Assembly: GCA_024278345.1 (NCBI GenBank)
Contig: JAJRTK010000333.1
Span: forward strand, 1-18,663
Source of the DNA: a bacterium
GTDB lineage: Bacteria; CSSED10-310; JAJRTK01
DNA length: 18,663 nucleotides
Direction of reading: 5' to 3'
The notes beneath the pieces were generated by a model. The model ran no database searches. It was not told the origin of the DNA and worked only from the letters and a program-made list of their open reading frames with translations. Below are positions 2,195 through 13,446 of this stretch, one piece after another; positions within the stretch are counted from its first letter, which is position 1; the number at the start of each line of letters is the position of its first letter. The position numbers and the translations under genes were made by a program.

Positions 2195-5100
2195 GTGAGA
2201 GACTGGCGCATGCCGAAACGGTTGCTTGTTGTTTTCGCCCTGCTGTTGGCCACTGCATGGGTGGCCATTCCAGCGCCGTCCACGGCGGAAATCCGCGTCG
2301 CTCCTACGACGTTTCTCACCGATAGTGACGGAATTACGGAGTTTGAACTGTACAAGAACGGCATCTATTGGTGGCAGAGGATGTGGGAAGAGACGACTCC
2401 GACCCGAGTCGTCACCATCCACCCGGGGACGATTCGGCTTCGCGGAACCATGGGCGGCTCGCAAAAGAGCGTGATGAGATCGGATCAGATCCTCACGCCT
2501 ATCAGCAATTCCACGGAAAATCATGGCAACGTGGCGCACGATGGGCAGTATGTCTACTTTTTCAGCCAGGGTCTGCTCCACCGGAAATCGCTGAACCTGG
2601 CCGAGGGGACATCGAGTCAACCCATGCCCGGGAACATCAGCCTGGCTACAGGGGAAAACAGCGCCTATATCGAGCTTTCAGGAGGGCAGCTCTATTGGGC
2701 GAACCACACCGTTAACCCCATTACGCTCCAGATGACGAATTACGTCTACAGTATGCCCACCAACGGGAATCAGTCCTCCCTGCTCTTCAGCAGCCCGGGG
2801 AGCGGGAGGATCGCGAAGATCCAAAGGGCGACCTACCGCCAGGCCGATGGCACGGATGTGGAAGCCTTGTTTCTTCTCACAGCCGATGGACGGCTCTTGA
2901 AGATACCGCTGAACCCCTCTGGCAGTGAACAGCTTTTGGATATGGACGTCTGGGATTTCGCCATCCACCATCGCGCCTGGATAGGAGGAGCCGCCACCGA
3001 CATTTACGCCGTCACCAGCCTGTTTACTGAAGGAAGCTTGACTCCGCCGTCCCCTGGAGAGTTGGTGCGAATCGATGCGGAAACGAACCTGGCGACGCGG
3101 TTGCGGACCGCCTCGGGTACCAAGCAATTCCTGGCGGTGACCACGGACAGCGACTCTGGTGCGACCAGCCCCGACAAGAATGTCTACGTCGTCGAGGCTG
3201 CCGTGAATTGCGGCGAACTAGTAGGATGCACGATAGGGGGTCCCTACGAAGTCTCCCGTCACAAGATTACGGTTCCGGTGGACTCGGGAGCCTGGGATAC
3301 ATTCGTCATCCAGATTTCGGGGATCGGTTCCATCAGGAGTGATGACCAAACTTTCTACTTTGTGGAGTATGGCGGTTCCTACGATTCGATCATGATGCTT
3401 CCCACGGATGCTGCCCCCGTCGAACTGGATTTCCAGGCCGATTACATGGAGGTGACTCAGGGAATCCAGAATATGGCTGGCGCTGTCCCTTTGGTGGGGG
3501 GGAAGGAGACCTATGTCCGAGGCTGGGGGTCTATCACCAACACGACGGGAGACAATGGTTGGCGCCCGTACGCGGTTATCCACGGCTACCGGAACGGGCA
3601 GGAACTCGCTGATTCGCCCATCGATTCTCGTAACTTTCCCTATTTGAGCGACACCAGCTCCTTGGCATACGATCGCCCCAGTTTGAATCATTCCTACTAT
3701 TTTCGGCTTCCGGAAACCTGGACTCAAGCCGGAAACCTGACCTTGGCCTTTGAGATCTCGCCATCTCCGGCGGAAACCGGGACTCTCCCCAACACGGTGA
3801 CCAAAGATGTGACATTTCAGAGTGTTCCGCGGCCCTGTATCGTCGGGATGCCTATCGCGGCGCAAGCGACTCCGTTTTTCAACCAAGTGGGCATAGCAGA
3901 CTGGCGGTTCGCCGACATTCTGGATCGATTTCGCACTCTCTTTCCCATCGGTCAATTCAGTTTCCACTACATCGACCAGCCGATCTACAAAACTTCCATC
4001 GACTTGGAAGTCCTTTGTCTCCCCGATGTTCCTATCATCTGGCCACCCTTTTGTGCCCCCTTCCCGGTGATCTCATATTCCCAGTTCGATATGAGTCTCA
4101 AGGATGAATGGTCGGAGGCATTGGGCAATGTGGCTCAAATGGCGGTCCTCAGCAATCTTTCCGGCTATCAGCCCGGCAATTGCGATCCGACGACTACCCA
4201 TTGGGTGGCGATGCTCCACCCGGTCGTGCTCAACGGCGCCTGGGCCGGCCTTGGGTATAGGCCGGGAAACTCGTCCATCGTGACCATGACGACGAGTCAG
4301 CCCAGCAAGAGCTACACCTACCCTCGCGGCGGCCAGATTCTGGCCCATGAATTGGCTCATAACCACGGGCGCAAGCATATCAATTGCGGCAGCGGTATAC
4401 TGGGGCCGTTCGACAATCCGCCGTGGGCGTCATGCAACCTGGGTCCGAACGATACACAGGAGTATTACGGCTTCGACGGATTCTCCTTTCCGCCCTCGAT
4501 CATCGCGCCGAATCCTGCTGCCGTGGCCGATCTCATGACCTATTTCCAACCCAAGTGGACCAGCAGCTTCACGTGGAATGCTATCTTGGGGACGACGCTT
4601 CCCGTTCGGCGGGCGGTGTGGCTGGAATCGGGAGAAGGCCGTCGTGCCAGTGAACTGCTCACGGTGAGCGGGACGATCTGGCCGCAGCAAGCCACGGTCC
4701 AAGCCAATCCTTTCTACCGGATCCCCGCCACACCGCTCACCCGGGCTCGGGCGGCACGATACGCGCCCACGGGTGTTGAAAGCCGCACGGTGTCGTACGA
4801 CATCCGTCTTCTGGACGCCCGGGGCCTGGAACTGTATCGGGAAGCGCTGGTCCTGAGCGCCGGTGAAGAGCCTCTGGAGACTGCGGCAGCCTTCTCCCGA
4901 ACCCTGACTTTCGATCCCAATACCGCCTACATCGAAATCGTTGATGCCAACAATACGACCCTCTTGCAACGGGCGGTCACTTCCAGCGCTCCCCTGCTCA
5001 CTCTCCAAGGAGTAACCGTGAACGACACGGACCAGACCGTGGAGCTTCGCTGGATCTCCTACGATCCAGACAACGATGTAGCCCCCGTTTTCACGATCCA

Positions 5101-6544
5101 GTACAGTACGGATGATGGCCTGACCTGGCAGCCCGTGGCTCTGAATTATGAGTTGTACAAGATCGTTCTGAATGCTTCGATGTTGCCAGGAAGCGACACC
5201 GCACGTCTCCAAGTCCTAGCCACCGACGGAGTCAACACGACCATCGCCATGAGCCAGCAGTTCAGCTTGCCCAAGCATGCACCCCGGCCTCTGATCGGAG
5301 GGATCACCGAAGGGGAACGGTTGGATTTCGCCATCGTTCCCACGCTTTCCGGATATGGTCTCGACGCCGAGGATGGTACGGTGGACGGGACAGGATTGAG
5401 CTGGGCCGTCACTGGCCCGGTCGCCCTGTCGGGGACTGGAAGAAGCTTCCCCCTGCCCGACCTGCTTCCCGGTGAGTACACGGCGGTCCTCACCGCCATC
5501 GACAGTGATGGGCAGTCGGGGATGGCCACACGTCATTTCGAGGTTCTACCGGTGGCGGTTCCCGATACGGCGGTTCCGGAACTCGATGGCCGTTGCACCG
5601 ATACCGCCTATACCGATGCCACCCTGGTCCGGCTTCTCCTGTCCAGTGGCCGGTTCGTCCGAGGGTGGATGCTTCATGCCAACGGAGCCCTTTACCTCTG
5701 CTTCTCCGATCTGCCCTTCGCCTCCGCCGGAGGCAGTCCCCTCGTGGTGGGAATCCGAGTGGATGGCGACAAAAGCGGCGACGGGGTGGCCCAAGCCGGA
5801 GATATGGGCTTCTTCGTCGATGAAGAAGGAATTCCCTACCAACTGGTGGGCGACGGAGCGGGCGCCATGCCCATCAGCTCGACGCCTGCGGTGGGATTCG
5901 AGGCGGTGGTGGAATGGGATACGGCGAGCTGGGACTCTCCGCCCCAGGATTGGAGCGCCGAAATGGAGATTTCCGAATCCCTCGTCAATGGTTGGGATCA
6001 CGCCGCCGGGATTATGTTCGACTACGCCAAGCCTTTGGATTCGGCTGGCACCACCTGGCCAGCCGGGGCCGGGGAGTCGGCTCCCTCCACCTGGGCTTCG
6101 GCCTGGTTTGGGACTCCACCGGCACCGGAGAATCGTCCTCCCGTAGCCAATCCCGGCATTGACGAAACTCTTCTGGTTCCGCAAGATCGGACGATCTATC
6201 TGGATGGCGGAAGCAGCTATGATCCCGATGGCAATCCTCTCAGCTACACCTGGATCCAGACGGCGGGCCCAACGGTGACTCTGCTCAATCCCGATTCATC
6301 GACGCCGAGCTTCGTGGCGTCTCCCGTGAGCGAGCCCACGGTTCTGGAGTTTGAGCTCATCGTGAGCGATGGGACGTTGAGTAGTGTCGCCGCCCGCATC
6401 AGGGTGACGTTGCTTCCGGCGTCGAGAGTGCCGGAAACGACGATGATTCCAGCATGGACGGGAACTCTGGGGACGATCTTGCTCCTCGGCCTGCTGGCCT
6501 TCTTCATGGCATCCCGCCGGCGTCGGTACACTCCTCGGGTTTGA
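2195..6544 (+). CDS. Large secreted metzincin-type zinc metalloprotease with beta-sandwich modules and C-terminal sorting-like helix
   Basis: The 1449-residue product starts at GTG, with GGAGG 7 bases upstream; an ATG at 2210 is a weaker alternative. Residues about 8-30 form a signal peptide (LLVVFALLLATAWVAIP). Residues about 35-410 look like a beta-propeller-like region of repeated short strands. The peptidase core carries HELAHNHGRKH at 718-728, matching HExxHxxGxxH (zinc ligands H718, H722, H728; catalytic E719). A likely Met-turn (DLMTYFQPKW, M781) follows 53 residues later. Both fit metzincins. Then come FN3/PKD-like modules (about 930-1120), a CBM9/DOMON-like domain (about 1125-1305) and a PKD-like domain (1313-1408, DGGSSYDPDGN). 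The end is IPAWTGTLG, a hydrophobic helix (about 1422-1441) and RRRR, resembling IPTL/PEP-CTERM sorting tails, though the match to IPTL is partial. Expected to act outside the cell or on its surface; the substrate is unknown. Confidence 0.85.
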   Translation: MRDWRMPKRLLVVFALLLATAWVAIPAPSTAEIRVAPTTFLTDSDGITEFELYKNGIYWWQRMWEETTPTRVVTIHPGTIRLRGTMGGSQKSVMRSDQILTPISNSTENHGNVAHDGQYVYFFSQGLLHRKSLNLAEGTSSQPMPGNISLATGENSAYIELSGGQLYWANHTVNPITLQMTNYVYSMPTNGNQSSLLFSSPGSGRIAKIQRATYRQADGTDVEALFLLTADGRLLKIPLNPSGSEQLLDMDVWDFAIHHRAWIGGAATDIYAVTSLFTEGSLTPPSPGELVRIDAETNLATRLRTASGTKQFLAVTTDSDSGATSPDKNVYVVEAAVNCGELVGCTIGGPYEVSRHKITVPVDSGAWDTFVIQISGIGSIRSDDQTFYFVEYGGSYDSIMMLPTDAAPVELDFQADYMEVTQGIQNMAGAVPLVGGKETYVRGWGSITNTTGDNGWRPYAVIHGYRNGQELADSPIDSRNFPYLSDTSSLAYDRPSLNHSYYFRLPETWTQAGNLTLAFEISPSPAETGTLPNTVTKDVTFQSVPRPCIVGMPIAAQATPFFNQVGIADWRFADILDRFRTLFPIGQFSFHYIDQPIYKTSIDLEVLCLPDVPIIWPPFCAPFPVISYSQFDMSLKDEWSEALGNVAQMAVLSNLSGYQPGNCDPTTTHWVAMLHPVVLNGAWAGLGYRPGNSSIVTMTTSQPSKSYTYPRGGQILAHELAHNHGRKHINCGSGILGPFDNPPWASCNLGPNDTQEYYGFDGFSFPPSIIAPNPAAVADLMTYFQPKWTSSFTWNAILGTTLPVRRAVWLESGEGRRASELLTVSGTIWPQQATVQANPFYRIPATPLTRARAARYAPTGVESRTVSYDIRLLDARGLELYREALVLSAGEEPLETAAAFSRTLTFDPNTAYIEIVDANNTTLLQRAVTSSAPLLTLQGVTVNDTDQTVELRWISYDPDNDVAPVFTIQYSTDDGLTWQPVALNYELYKIVLNASMLPGSDTARLQVLATDGVNTTIAMSQQFSLPKHAPRPLIGGITEGERLDFAIVPTLSGYGLDAEDGTVDGTGLSWAVTGPVALSGTGRSFPLPDLLPGEYTAVLTAIDSDGQSGMATRHFEVLPVAVPDTAVPELDGRCTDTAYTDATLVRLLLSSGRFVRGWMLHANGALYLCFSDLPFASAGGSPLVVGIRVDGDKSGDGVAQAGDMGFFVDEEGIPYQLVGDGAGAMPISSTPAVGFEAVVEWDTASWDSPPQDWSAEMEISESLVNGWDHAAGIMFDYAKPLDSAGTTWPAGAGESAPSTWASAWFGTPPAPENRPPVANPGIDETLLVPQDRTIYLDGGSSYDPDGNPLSYTWIQTAGPTVTLLNPDSSTPSFVASPVSEPTVLEFELIVSDGTLSSVAARIRVTLLPASRVPETTMIPAWTGTLGTILLLGLLAFFMASRRRRYTPRV

Positions 6545-8233: not shown

Positions 8234-8884
8234 ATGATTCTCGTGCTGGAACCAGATGCCCCACAGGAGCTTGTAGAAAGCCTGTGCCGTGACGTCGAAA
8301 GTTTAGGGGTGACCTGCGAAGTGTCTCGGGGGCCCCGGGAAGTCATCATCGCCCTTCCGCCCACCGTCGATAGCGTCGAGCTCCAGAAGCTCATGGAAGA
8401 AAGGCGTGAGGTGGATGTCATCCCGATCCTTACGGAGCCGGAATACGTGAGGCAGCGGGGGAGGCGGAAGTTCATGCGGAGTTTGTTGGCGGGGCTTGGC
8501 CTATTGAGCGGAGTCGCAGCGGGGATTCCCGTTGTCGGCTTTCTTTTGCCGCCTCGGAAGCAGCTTTCGCAGCCGAATCGGGTTCTGGGGGGGCGTGTGT
8601 GGCAGCTTTCCCGGAACGAGACGAAGCTGGTGCGATTGCGCGGCAAGCCGGTGTTGGTCATCAACGATGAGTTCGGAAACTACCATGCGGTCAGCGCGCT
8701 TTGCACCCACATGAACGTGTGCCAGTTGGAATGGGACCCGAGTCGCCGGCTTCTGGCCTGTCCCTGTCACGACGGTGCCTTTGATGTTCATGGCAACGTG
8801 GTTGCCGGGCCACCTCCGACACCGCTCCAGACGTTCGAGGTCGAGGTTCAAGGCGACGAGATCTACATCAGCCGGGAGGGTTGA
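8234..8884 (+). CDS. Rieske [2Fe-2S] protein with N-terminal DAHP-synthase-type FXD domain
   Basis: First gene of the operon; 216 residues with a weak GGAAAGAG ribosome site. Residues 1-72 (MILVLEPDAPQELVESL..., SRG, ...VIPIL) match the beta-alpha-beta pattern of the ferredoxin-like regulatory domain of DAHP synthase (compare MIVVLKPGSTEED... of the Thermotoga enzyme, from memory). A Tat-like motif RRKFMR (77-82) and a hydrophobic anchor (83-105) follow, as in uncleaved Tat-dependent Rieske proteins. The C-terminal Rieske fold has box I CTHMNVC (C157, H159, C163) and box II CPCH (C176, C178, H179), plus GPPPTPL. C157, H159, C176 and H179 should bind the cluster. Box I has one residue more than the usual CTHxxC, shifting the disulfide cysteine. 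Topology puts the FXD domain in the cytoplasm and the cluster outside. It should pass electrons from quinol to the cytochromes downstream. The 4-base gap to cytochrome b supports one complex. Confidence 0.93.
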   Translation: MILVLEPDAPQELVESLCRDVESLGVTCEVSRGPREVIIALPPTVDSVELQKLMEERREVDVIPILTEPEYVRQRGRRKFMRSLLAGLGLLSGVAAGIPVVGFLLPPRKQLSQPNRVLGGRVWQLSRNETKLVRLRGKPVLVINDEFGNYHAVSALCTHMNVCQLEWDPSRRLLACPCHDGAFDVHGNVVAGPPPTPLQTFEVEVQGDEIYISREG

Positions 8885-8888
8885 GTTC

Positions 8889-9536
8889 ATGCGCTCCAAG
8901 AGACACGGAGTCAGGCGGACCTTGTGGAGGGCGATGCAGCAGCCGGTATCGCCGCGACAGGCTGGCATGATGAGGTTTGTCTGGCTGTTGATATTGCTTT
9001 TTGCGGTTCAGATCGTCACGGGGATTCTGTTGTCGCTTTACTATCAGCCGTCGCCGGAATCCGCGTATGAAAGCGTTGTCTTCATTTTGCGCGATGTGTC
9101 GTTTGGCTGGCTTCTTCGCGGGGTCCATTATTGGTCTGCTCAACTGATGATCGCCCTTGGCATGTTGCAGGTGATCCGGGCGTTTTACGCCGGTATGTAC
9201 AAGGGGCCAGGCCGCATCCACTGGTATATCGGGATGCTCTTGTTTCTGTCGATCCTTGCCTTTGCGCTCACCGGTTCCCTGCTTGCGTGGGATCAGACGG
9301 CTTACTGGGGGGCTGTAGGAGCCATGGAATGGGTCGAAGCGATTCCAGTTGTTGGCACGATGATGGCGCTCGTTTTGCGCGGGGGGCACCAAGTTGGGGC
9401 GGCGACTTTGGGGCGATTCTATTCGATTCATATTCTGCTTTTGCCCTGGATCACCTTCTATCTGCTGCTGGCCCATCTGTGGTTGCAGTCGCGGATCCGT
9501 GCCGAGCAAGTTCCGATGACACCCAAGGAGAAATAG
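8889..9536 (+). CDS. Cytochrome b (b6-like, four-helix) with a missing heme bH ligand
   Basis: The ATG at 8889 follows GGGAGGG by 8 bases and gives 215 residues, the length of cytochrome b6; upstream in-frame extension overlaps the Rieske gene and was rejected. Four membrane helices are visible: A (about 27-52), B (about 70-100), C (about 110-137) and D (about 177-200). Family marks include QIVTG, YYQPSP, SFGWLLRGVHYWSA, LAWDQTAYWG, VVGTMMALVLRGG and FYSIH. Helix B has H80 but Q94 (codon CAG at 9168) where b6 and mitochondrial cytochrome b have the second His, 14 residues on. Helix D has H181 and H196 with the b6-type spacing of 15. So bL (H80/H181) looks intact and bH (Q94/H196) does not. 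The Cys that binds heme cn in b6f aligns with Arg here. It forms the quinol-oxidising core with the neighbouring genes. Confidence 0.93.
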   Translation: MRSKRHGVRRTLWRAMQQPVSPRQAGMMRFVWLLILLFAVQIVTGILLSLYYQPSPESAYESVVFILRDVSFGWLLRGVHYWSAQLMIALGMLQVIRAFYAGMYKGPGRIHWYIGMLLFLSILAFALTGSLLAWDQTAYWGAVGAMEWVEAIPVVGTMMALVLRGGHQVGAATLGRFYSIHILLLPWITFYLLLAHLWLQSRIRAEQVPMTPKEK

Positions 9537-9538
9537 CC

Positions 9539-10123
9539 ATGATCGTCGTTCTCAGGCGAGGGATTACCGACGCTCAAATCGAGGAGATCCTGGGCGAGTT
9601 TCCAAAACTTGGGATTGAGGGGCGGGTTATACGGGGCGCGAGCAAGCCGGTAATCCACATTCTCTCGGGGACTTTTTTAGCCGTGCGACCGCTGCTGCGC
9701 ATGGATCGAGTGGAGGCGATTGTCCGCACCGATGGCCCCAGAATCCGAAAAGTCGGGCGGCCCTTTTTCCCCCACCACTTCATCAACTGGTGCGTCTCGA
9801 CATTATTGGCTTTGGCCGGGTTGATCGTGCTGGCCGGGTTTCTTCCGCCGGGGTTGGGTTCTCCGGTGGACGTAACGCAGGCACCGGGTGTTTTTTCGTC
9901 ACCCTGGTATGCGCGGGCCTTTGAAAAGCTGATTTCCCTTGCTCCTCCGGCGTACGCAAAGGTTGCTCCAGGAGCGACATTCCTGATGATCGTCGTCATT
10001 TTTTTCCTGCCTCTTTGGGACCGAGGCGAAGACCGCCGCCTGATCAGGCGCTTGCCGGTACTTTTGCTTGGCACCGCTGTTCTGGCGGGGTTCATCTACC
10101 TGTCCATCGTTGGGCTCTTCTGA
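9539..10123 (+). CDS. Cytochrome b6f subunit IV-like protein with N-terminal FXD domain
   Basis: Start at 9539, two bases after the cytochrome b stop, with AAGGAG upstream; 194 residues. Residues 1-78 (MIVVLRRGITDAQIEEIL, VIRG, VEAIVR, ...VGRPFFP) align almost without gaps to the DAHP synthase FXD domain, even in its closing VxREFxP-like segment. After that come three membrane helices: E (about 82-105), F (about 139-160) and G (about 170-192). This matches the C-terminal half of cytochrome b / subunit IV, with FFPHHFINW and LPPGLGSPVD typical of the start of helix E. The Qo motif PEWY reads S121-P122-W123-Y124, lacking the Glu that takes quinol protons. The N-terminus of subunit IV faces the cytoplasm, the same side as the Rieske FXD domain, so the two could pair. 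The identity of the helical part is firm in context. Confidence 0.88.
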   Translation: MIVVLRRGITDAQIEEILGEFPKLGIEGRVIRGASKPVIHILSGTFLAVRPLLRMDRVEAIVRTDGPRIRKVGRPFFPHHFINWCVSTLLALAGLIVLAGFLPPGLGSPVDVTQAPGVFSSPWYARAFEKLISLAPPAYAKVAPGATFLMIVVIFFLPLWDRGEDRRLIRRLPVLLLGTAVLAGFIYLSIVGLF

Positions 10124-11391: not shown

Positions 11392-13446
11392 ATGAGACAG
11401 ACCAGACGCCGGTCGCTTTTCCGGATCCGTGCCGTTCAACTGCTTCAGACCTCCCTTTTGGTTTTGGTTTTTGGCGTTGCCCTCATGGCAGCAGGGATGT
11501 TCGCGGCCATTGAATATACGGCCCAGCCGGATTTTTGCCGAACTTGCCACAACATGGAGCCCTTTTATCAGTCCTGGAAGAAGTCCAGCCACTCCAAGGT
11601 TCCCTGTATCGAATGTCACTACGAGCCAGGTGCCGTAGAAACGCTCGACGGCAAGTTCAAGGCACTTTCGCAGCTCGCCAAATACGCCACCCGCACCCAG
11701 GGAACCAAGCCCTGGGCCGAAGTCAGTGACGATAGTTGCATGCGCTCTGGCTGCCACTACACCCGCCTTCTTGAAGGCCCCATCCGGTTTGGCAAGGTCA
11801 AATACGATCACGGACCCCACCTCTTGGAGAACACAAAGGGGCACCGGCTCCAATGTACCACCTGCCACTCTCAGGTTCTCCAAATCGAGCATTTCAGCGT
11901 TTCGAAGAATCTCTGTTTCACCTGCCATTTCATGGACGAGTCCAAGAGTGGCTTCCGGAATGCCAGCGACTGCCTCAAGTGCCATGTGCCACCGAAGGAA
12001 GCGATTCCGGTTGACGGCAAGCCCTTCCTACATTCGGATTACACGAACCGAGGAGTCCAGTGCCGCGAATGTCACGATCCCGCGTCGAAGGGCGCCGGTC
12101 AGGTTCGCCGCGAGCGTTGTCCCTCTTGCCACGGCGAGGTCGAATACCTGGAGCGGTACGAGGAGACTGTTTTTCTCCACCAGAGCCACGTCACCGACCA
12201 CAAGGTCGAATGTTTCGAGTGCCACGACGATATCCAACACGGCCTCTTGCCACTGGAGTCCCCGGTGAAAAGCTCCGAGGGCTGCGGTTCATGCCACGTG
12301 ACGCCCCACGATGCCAACCAGATGCTCTATGCCGGGACCGGAGCCGTTGGAGTGGAAGACCGGCCTAGCCGTATGTTCCAGACCCGCATCGTCTGTCAGG
12401 CCTGCCACACGGGCAGAAGCCAGCCCAAGGCCGGAATGAAGAAGAAGCATGGCACGGAAGGAAGCTCCCATATTCCCACTTCCGTGGTGGCTGCCGCGGG
12501 GGAAGTGGATTGCTTCCATTGCCATGACGTGAAATTCGAGGGCATGCTGCCCCGGTGGCAAGGGAGTGTAGAAGGTGTTTTGGCGGAACTCTTGCCCGCC
12601 CTTGAAGCGCTTGGGCAGAAGCTCCCGGATTCGGAGGACCACCCGGCGCGGCAGCTCTATCTCGAGGCTAAACAGAATGTCGATCTGGTCGTGCTGGATG
12701 GCTCCAAGGGTGCTCATAATGTCTCTTACGCTTTGGACGCTCTTCGCGTCAGCGCGGAGCGAATCGCCGAGGCATCGAAGCTTCTCGATCCAGAGGCACC
12801 CGCCGTGCCTGTGGGCAAGTTTCCCCTTTCTTTCAAAAGCGATTGCGCTTCCGGATGCCATCTGGGAGTGGAAGAAACCAAGAAAGTAGAGTTCAGGAAT
12901 GGTGAGGTCTTCCCCCATCGCCGACACCTGGTGGAGGGAAAACTGGACTGCGCCAGTTGCCATAGCACCGAAGAGCACGGACAACCCGCCTTCCCAAGGA
13001 GCCAATGTGGGAATTGCCACCACCAGCCAGCGGAAGGTTCGGGCCAAGAGATCCAGTGTGCCACCTGCCACGCCACCCAAGCGGGGATGATTGCGGGCGA
13101 GCTTCAGGATCTGAAGGGCGAACCGTCGATCATGGCGGAGTCGGTTTCGTGTGATGGTTGCCATGGTGAGGCGCCGGAAATCGTGAGGCCCACGGGAGAG
13201 ACTTGCATCGATTGCCACGAGGATGGCTACGAAGAGTTTCTGGCGGAATGGCGCTCCAATACGGCGGAACTCCAGGAGCGTTTGCGAAAGAAGCTTTTCG
13301 AGGCAGAAGACGACGCTCTTCCAGCGGATCTCATCCAGCGGGCAAAGCAGGTTCTCCAATGGACGGAGCAAGACGGAAGCAAGGGAGTCCACAACGCGGA
13401 TTTCGTCGAAGAAATGCTCACCGAAGCGCTCCGGAAGCTCAAATAG
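11392..13446 (+). CDS. NapC/NirT-anchored multiheme cytochrome c, about 18 heme sites (684 aa)
   Basis: ATG at 11392 with AGGA upstream; the frame extends further upstream inside the previous gene but no sensible start lies there. The N-terminus has one membrane helix (LLQTSLLVLVFGVALMAAGM) and the NapC/NirT signature FCRTCHNMEPFYQSW (C49) then CIECH. I count 16 CxxCH sites, one CX4CH (C116-C121-H122, with MRSG between the cysteines) and one CX3CH (C485-C489-H490, with ASG between), 18 in total. Two helical modules carry DGSKGxHN (436-443 and 661-668), like the HN-containing helices of NrfA-type cytochromes, each after a long helix. It is the last gene of the operon. NapC-type anchors take electrons from quinol or neighbouring b subunits; here it probably extends the heme wire in the periplasm. 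No catalytic nitrite-reductase CxxCK site is present. Confidence 0.92.
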   Translation: MRQTRRRSLFRIRAVQLLQTSLLVLVFGVALMAAGMFAAIEYTAQPDFCRTCHNMEPFYQSWKKSSHSKVPCIECHYEPGAVETLDGKFKALSQLAKYATRTQGTKPWAEVSDDSCMRSGCHYTRLLEGPIRFGKVKYDHGPHLLENTKGHRLQCTTCHSQVLQIEHFSVSKNLCFTCHFMDESKSGFRNASDCLKCHVPPKEAIPVDGKPFLHSDYTNRGVQCRECHDPASKGAGQVRRERCPSCHGEVEYLERYEETVFLHQSHVTDHKVECFECHDDIQHGLLPLESPVKSSEGCGSCHVTPHDANQMLYAGTGAVGVEDRPSRMFQTRIVCQACHTGRSQPKAGMKKKHGTEGSSHIPTSVVAAAGEVDCFHCHDVKFEGMLPRWQGSVEGVLAELLPALEALGQKLPDSEDHPARQLYLEAKQNVDLVVLDGSKGAHNVSYALDALRVSAERIAEASKLLDPEAPAVPVGKFPLSFKSDCASGCHLGVEETKKVEFRNGEVFPHRRHLVEGKLDCASCHSTEEHGQPAFPRSQCGNCHHQPAEGSGQEIQCATCHATQAGMIAGELQDLKGEPSIMAESVSCDGCHGEAPEIVRPTGETCIDCHEDGYEEFLAEWRSNTAELQERLRKKLFEAEDDALPADLIQRAKQVLQWTEQDGSKGVHNADFVEEMLTEALRKLK

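Follow-up and report, generated by a model that had tools for sequence, protein, structure and literature searches.

DAHP synthase-type FXD domains at the N-termini of the Rieske and subunit IV-like proteins of a Rieske/cytochrome b complex

The window analysed here, a stretch of 18,663 nucleotides, contains an operon of five genes on the + strand which encode, in order, a Rieske protein, cytochrome b6, a subunit IV-like protein, a 9-haem cytochrome c and a 16- to 18-haem cytochrome c. The coordinates of the genes and of features within them are summarized in Table 1. The spacing between neighbouring genes is 2–15 bases, and the start of the subunit IV-like gene is preceded by a good Shine-Dalgarno sequence (AAGGAG). 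The host genome is a draft of 550 contigs (6.06 Mb, 88% complete). The Rieske protein is of the bc/b6f type, as judged by PF00355 and hydropathy, with the CTH and CPCH ligands and the N-terminal anchor (residues 87–105) present; its cluster motifs read CTHMNVC and CPCH, the former being one residue longer than CTHxxC. For the membrane part of the subunit IV-like protein, phmmer returned subunit IV of other genomes, with the Pfam family PF00032 reaching only E 0.12. Elsewhere in the window (2195–6544) lies the gene for a 1449-amino acid secreted-type protein that carries a zinc-protease motif (HELAHNHGRKH), a region near the C-terminus matching myxosortase-dependent M36 proteins, and a C-terminal membrane helix with an arginine cluster.

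Table 1. Positions of the operon genes and of the features discussed in the text, numbered from the first letter of the window.
Feature	Position	Strand	Evidence
Rieske protein gene	8234-8884	+	first operon gene
FXD domain (DAHPS regulatory-type, ferredoxin-like), Rieske residues 1-71	8234..8446	+	PF18152, own profile, AF2 model
Twin-arginine-like motif RRKFM and membrane anchor, Rieske residues 77-105	8462..8548	+	sequence; hydropathy segment 87-105
Rieske [2Fe-2S] domain, residues 120-201	8591..8836	+	PF00355, 52.3 bits
Cytochrome b6-type subunit, 215 aa	8889..9536	+	PF00033, 147 bits; alignment
Gln94 (codon CAG) in place of the helix-B histidine ligating haem bn	9168..9170	+	cytochrome b alignment
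Subunit IV-like protein gene	9539-10123	+	third operon gene
FXD domain, subunit IV-like residues 1-70	9539..9748	+	PF18152, own profile, AF2 model
Membrane part of the subunit IV-like protein (three hydrophobic helices)	9749..10123	+	alignment, phmmer, hydropathy
SPWY where the Qo site normally has PEWY, subunit IV	9899..9910	+	alignment
9-haem c-type cytochrome, C-terminal membrane helix	10139..11386	+	9 CXXCH
NapC/NrfH-anchored multihaem c-type cytochrome	11392..13446	+	16 CXXCH plus 2 CX3-4CH

A preliminary description of this locus had assigned the N-termini of the Rieske and subunit IV-like proteins to the FXD domain of DAHP synthase (DAHPS), the enzyme with which aromatic amino acid synthesis starts, and profile searches, shuffled controls and structural matching all uphold that assignment at the same coordinates. 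Both N-termini exceed the 27 bits that PF18152 (DAHP_snth_FXD) has as its curated cut-off, with 32.4 bits for the Rieske copy (E 8e-8, residues 1–41) and 33.0 bits for the subunit IV copy (E 6e-8, residues 1–62), and they are the only matches to this family in the whole 6.06 Mb genome. In the Rieske copy the Pfam match covers 41 of the 67 family positions; support for the second half of this domain comes mainly from the structure model and a four-sequence profile and less from Pfam. A separate FXD profile, made from 30 DAHP synthases and controlled with 5000 shuffles of each domain, gave 27.0 bits for the Rieske copy (best shuffle 9.0) and 29.6 bits for the subunit IV copy (best shuffle 11.0). 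When 10,950 ORFs from six-frame translation of the retrieved loci were searched with the same profile, nothing but DAHP synthases and the two window genes came out at E <1e-3.

At the level of single sequences, residues 1–79 of the subunit IV-like protein pair with residues 1–79 of Thermotoga maritima DAHPS with one gap in each, a match that is weak alone (E 0.28). The alignment closes with a VxRxFxP-like segment, and bears out the nearly gap-free pairing with this enzyme given in the preliminary description. The two window copies align to one another without gaps up to residue 33, and both begin with the MI-V-L pattern. Gly33, which is invariant in the 30 DAHPS domains, is present in both. 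Their mutual identity is 27%, no closer than that of either to DAHPS; direct comparison of the two by BLASTP returned no match, and it is the profile and the alignment that relate them. In a tree of FXD domains the window copies stand apart on very long branches, and the tree is uninformative. No DAHP synthase barrel follows the FXD domain in either gene, where the Rieske or subunit IV part is found instead.

AlphaFold models of both copies have the element order beta-alpha-beta-beta-alpha-beta, with pLDDT of 74–75; the input alignments were small, with one clear DAHPS row (L197) that may steer the model, so that the evidence from the fold is partly circular. The highest-scoring structural match was T. 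maritima DAHPS for the subunit IV copy (Z 10.8, rmsd 2.7 over 69 residues) and also for the Rieske copy (Z 9.0). In both cases this enzyme, or a chimera of it, ranked ahead of unrelated ferredoxin folds, so a check by structure prediction proposed in the preliminary description turned out in favour of the DAHPS FXD fold for both N-termini. The sequence evidence for FXD identity is independent of the bias in the AF2 input. Alignments for the full-length proteins were also tried, and were discarded as the FXD rows were misplaced. The T. maritima domain (PDB codes: 1RZM, 1VR6, 4GRS) resembles the window copies in its N-terminal place, profile score and predicted fold, and has in common with them Gly33 and the MI-V-L start. 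In comparison to it, the window copies are attached to membrane subunits rather than to the DAHPS barrel, and they have lost His29 and the GxIG motif that follows strand 3.

The reading frames of both genes are unbroken, and the codon-position GC of the FXD parts resembles that of the remainder of each gene. A concern raised at the outset was that fusions lacking homologues elsewhere might come from mis-joined frames: homologous fusions were indeed not found in the searches described below, but mis-joining is unlikely given the continuous frames and normal coding GC. Within 386 genomes, no Rieske homologue among the matches listed carried an FXD domain, nor did any Rieske protein in 53 genomes from the phyla of G021, G214 and G201. 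The Rieske scan of 84,980 species found nothing, and a cytochrome b scan of the same 84,980 species, which gave at least 596 candidate stretches of which 80 loci were kept, yielded no FXD in any of them. The host belongs to a small phylum, and neither the Rieske protein nor the 9-haem subunit gave a match in the seven other genomes searched from it. Homologues of the latter occur in 41 of the 386 genomes and lie beside Rieske and cytochrome b genes in the examples inspected.

Searching from the side of the FXD domain gave a similar picture. An FXD alignment matched in 206 of 386 genomes; this search shows the best matches only, and weak non-DAHPS FXD domains may be hidden, while any resembling those of the window would have ranked at the top. 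The matches listed outside the window are almost all DAHP synthase-sized frames, with two shorter ones of 144 and 248 amino acids. No further fusion carrier was found in the phylum of G049 with the alignment, or in 193 genomes with PF18152. Several PF18152 frames of odd size were considered as new fusions and rejected, as they proved to be DAHP synthases (some with prephenate dehydratase) or long frames; in two loci, L154 (G003) and L157 (G042), a single protein joins an FXD-DAHP synthase to a prephenate dehydratase-like domain. Two short FXD orphans, L165 and L159, were left after the search of 193 genomes. The latter (G103:C367, positions 1461–1718, - strand) is an 86-amino acid stand-alone FXD-like ORF with a PF18152 score of 20.8 bits, below the cut-off, and is possibly a second case of an FXD domain outside DAHP synthase. 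Apart from a few such truncated or orphan pieces, the FXD carriers found are DAHP synthases only. Fusion of FXD to a complex of this kind is not described in the literature searched; the preliminary description had known of no such bc/b6f-type relative, and none came to light in the genome searches either. No small-molecule regulatory domain is known on core subunits of cytochrome bc/b6f-type complexes, and none is described in the literature searched. The fusion of FXD to both the Rieske and subunit IV-like proteins is confirmed, and is known from one draft genome.

The Rieske protein is ordered as FXD domain, RRKFM motif, one hydrophobic helix and Rieske domain, and its relatives begin near the RRKFM motif. 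In the subunit IV-like protein, SPWY follows helix 1 and a basic loop (DRGEDRRLIRR) follows helix 2, which together argue for an N-terminus on the inside. From the way such proteins are known to cross the membrane, and from the positive-inside rule, the two FXD domains are predicted to lie on its cytoplasmic (n) side, in line with the earlier assignment.

The cytochrome b6-type subunit retains His80, His181 and His196 and departs from the four-histidine set at Gln94; the histidine expected here, in helix B, was assigned to haem bn via alignment with b6f. Among 134 compared cytochromes b this position is His in 120, Arg in 12 and Gln in two, namely the window and one other. The SPWY of the subunit IV-like protein lacks the PEWY glutamate, as do the relatives without the haem bn ligand, in which the motif is PPWY, APWY or ISWY. 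The Arg-type relatives, found in kin of G201 and G214, have PPWY in most cases, and in six rows the partner His196 is also lost (Thr instead). As both the PEWY glutamate and the haem bn ligand are absent, quinol oxidation by the normal Q-cycle is not to be assumed; Gln94 and SPWY, which the preliminary description had not remarked on, together suggest that the complex is probably not a canonical Q-cycle enzyme. In a tree of cytochrome b the window falls beside L013 (95/96), a grouping that is possibly due to long-branch attraction given the length of the L013 branch (4.2). The 12 rows of the Arg type fall in a clade of their own, which lends no support to a single origin of ligand loss. Overall, there seems to be a lineage of Rieske/cytochrome b complexes that do without the normal n-side haem. 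The gain of FXD as the cause of ligand loss was considered and rejected, because some FXD-free relatives have lost the ligand too.

Operons from G021, G214 and G201 (L168–L170) resemble that of the window in the order of Rieske, cytochrome b and multihaem c genes, in a residue other than His at the position of the helix-B haem bn ligand and in the missing PEWY glutamate. Unlike the window, they encode b6 and subunit IV as a single fused protein and have no FXD domain, and FeS and NrfD-type genes lie upstream in two of these operons. In the haem-bn-deficient operon at L168 these are a Tat-type FeS protein gene and an NrfD-like gene, and at L170 at least an FeS protein gene lies upstream in the same strand region. 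Such FeS/NrfD-like genes might provide the n-side quinone site that is missing at L168 and L170.

Operons of this general kind are widespread, including Geobacter ExtN-Q and the Rieske/cytochrome b operons of anammox bacteria, and FXD was present in no other operon examined. In Geobacter, ExtN-ExtO-ExtP-ExtQ are a multihaem c-type cytochrome, a Rieske protein, a cytochrome b and a membrane protein (PMC5877670, PMC2825233). This cluster shares with the window a Rieske protein, a separate cytochrome b, a small membrane subunit and multihaem cytochrome c. Against the ExtP model (NCBIfam NF040969) the window cytochrome b6 scores 177.3 bits with a cut-off of 290, and is thus related and not a member. 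The window differs from the Ext cluster in having no ExtI/ExtKL neighbours and in its FXD domains, Gln94 and SPWY; ExtO, with its 14.1 kDa, leaves no room for an FXD domain. The anammox gene clusters Kustd1480-1485 and Kuste4569-4574 encode Rieske, cytochrome b and subunit IV-like proteins with multihaem cytochrome c replacing cytochrome f, and their complexes carry an n-side NAD(P) oxidoreductase that contains FAD and FeS clusters (PMC12954380). The anammox complexes and that of the window both have extra protein on the n-side, which in the window is the FXD domain fused to the Rieske and subunit IV-like proteins.

Most plausibly, a Rieske/cytochrome b/multihaem c complex of the ExtNOPQ kind acquired DAHPS-type FXD domains on two cytoplasmic N-termini. 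The FXD domains of DAHP synthase act in pairs, and since one copy is found here on each of two subunits, our preferred reading is that the two may pair inside the cell and so clamp the Rieske anchor to subunit IV on the n-side; we give this reading a probability of roughly 0.45. The n-side is altered in any case, with no His for haem bn, and the FXD pair would probably stabilize or tune the complex there. Chance capture would not predict two FXD domains on two core subunits of one tight operon. Against a clamp, the two copies resemble DAHPS at least as much as they resemble one another (27% identity), so they may have evolved separately. Moreover, similar complexes work FXD-free, including those with the same loss of the haem bn ligand, and the fusion comes from a single genome.

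A doubtful alternative is that the FXD pair, being ACT-like, binds a cytoplasmic metabolite and thereby switches electron flow. FXD is regulatory in DAHP synthase, two copies suffice for a pair, and the Rieske copy retains Ser31 and Gly33. The relevant ligand residues, which we take to be His29 and Ser31 at the tyrosine site of T. maritima DAHPS, are retained in 25 and 24 of the 30 DAHP synthases, respectively. The corresponding residues are Glu and Ser in the Rieske copy and Arg and Ile in the subunit IV copy, which leaves both without His29 and the latter without Ser31, and the GxIG motif is missing from the two alike. The host's own type I DAHP synthase (L152, G000:C160) has no FXD domain, with the proviso that an 88% complete genome may omit another copy. 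The loss of these residues and of GxIG, together with a host enzyme free of FXD, disfavours feedback by aromatic amino acids, and the sensing role suggested in the preliminary description is not borne out for these compounds; a ligand of another kind is possible. In a specific form of this alternative, which we regard as unlikely, a cytoplasmic metabolite bound between the two captured domains would set electron flow in a complex whose n-side haem site has degenerated, and a domain borrowed from amino acid biosynthesis would thus exert allosteric control over a quinol-oxidizing core.

Each FXD domain could instead act separately, as a docking site for a soluble protein of the cytoplasm or for a further subunit on the n-side. 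A precedent for n-side additions is the NAD(P) oxidoreductase in the anammox complexes (PMC12954380), and with the haem bn site altered, electron entry or exit on this side may differ. FXD itself carries no redox cofactor, however, and neither the operon nor the rest of the window shows an evident redox partner for the n-side, which makes separate docking distinctly unlikely.

The long branches, the lost DAHPS motifs and the restriction to one genome would fit FXD coding sequence that was captured twice and is merely tolerated, but in both domains the frame is still open, the composition is that of coding sequence and the core is foldable, and two independent neutral captures within one operon are improbable, as we consider this explanation to be. 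A chance profile match, a wrong start codon or an assembly mis-join, to which the partial Pfam match of the Rieske copy (41 of 67 positions) and the 550-contig draft might point, is largely refuted by the shuffles, structure, coding composition, unbroken frames and the Shine-Dalgarno sequence AAGGAG at the subunit IV start, and is very improbable.

If the FXD domains merely clamp the two subunits together, they would clearly illustrate how a regulatory domain can be reused as a structural one. If the pair binds a ligand, metabolism would tune respiration directly in this organism. Loss of the haem bn ligand, both here and in a second lineage, asks whether a Rieske/cytochrome b complex works without the normal n-side haem.
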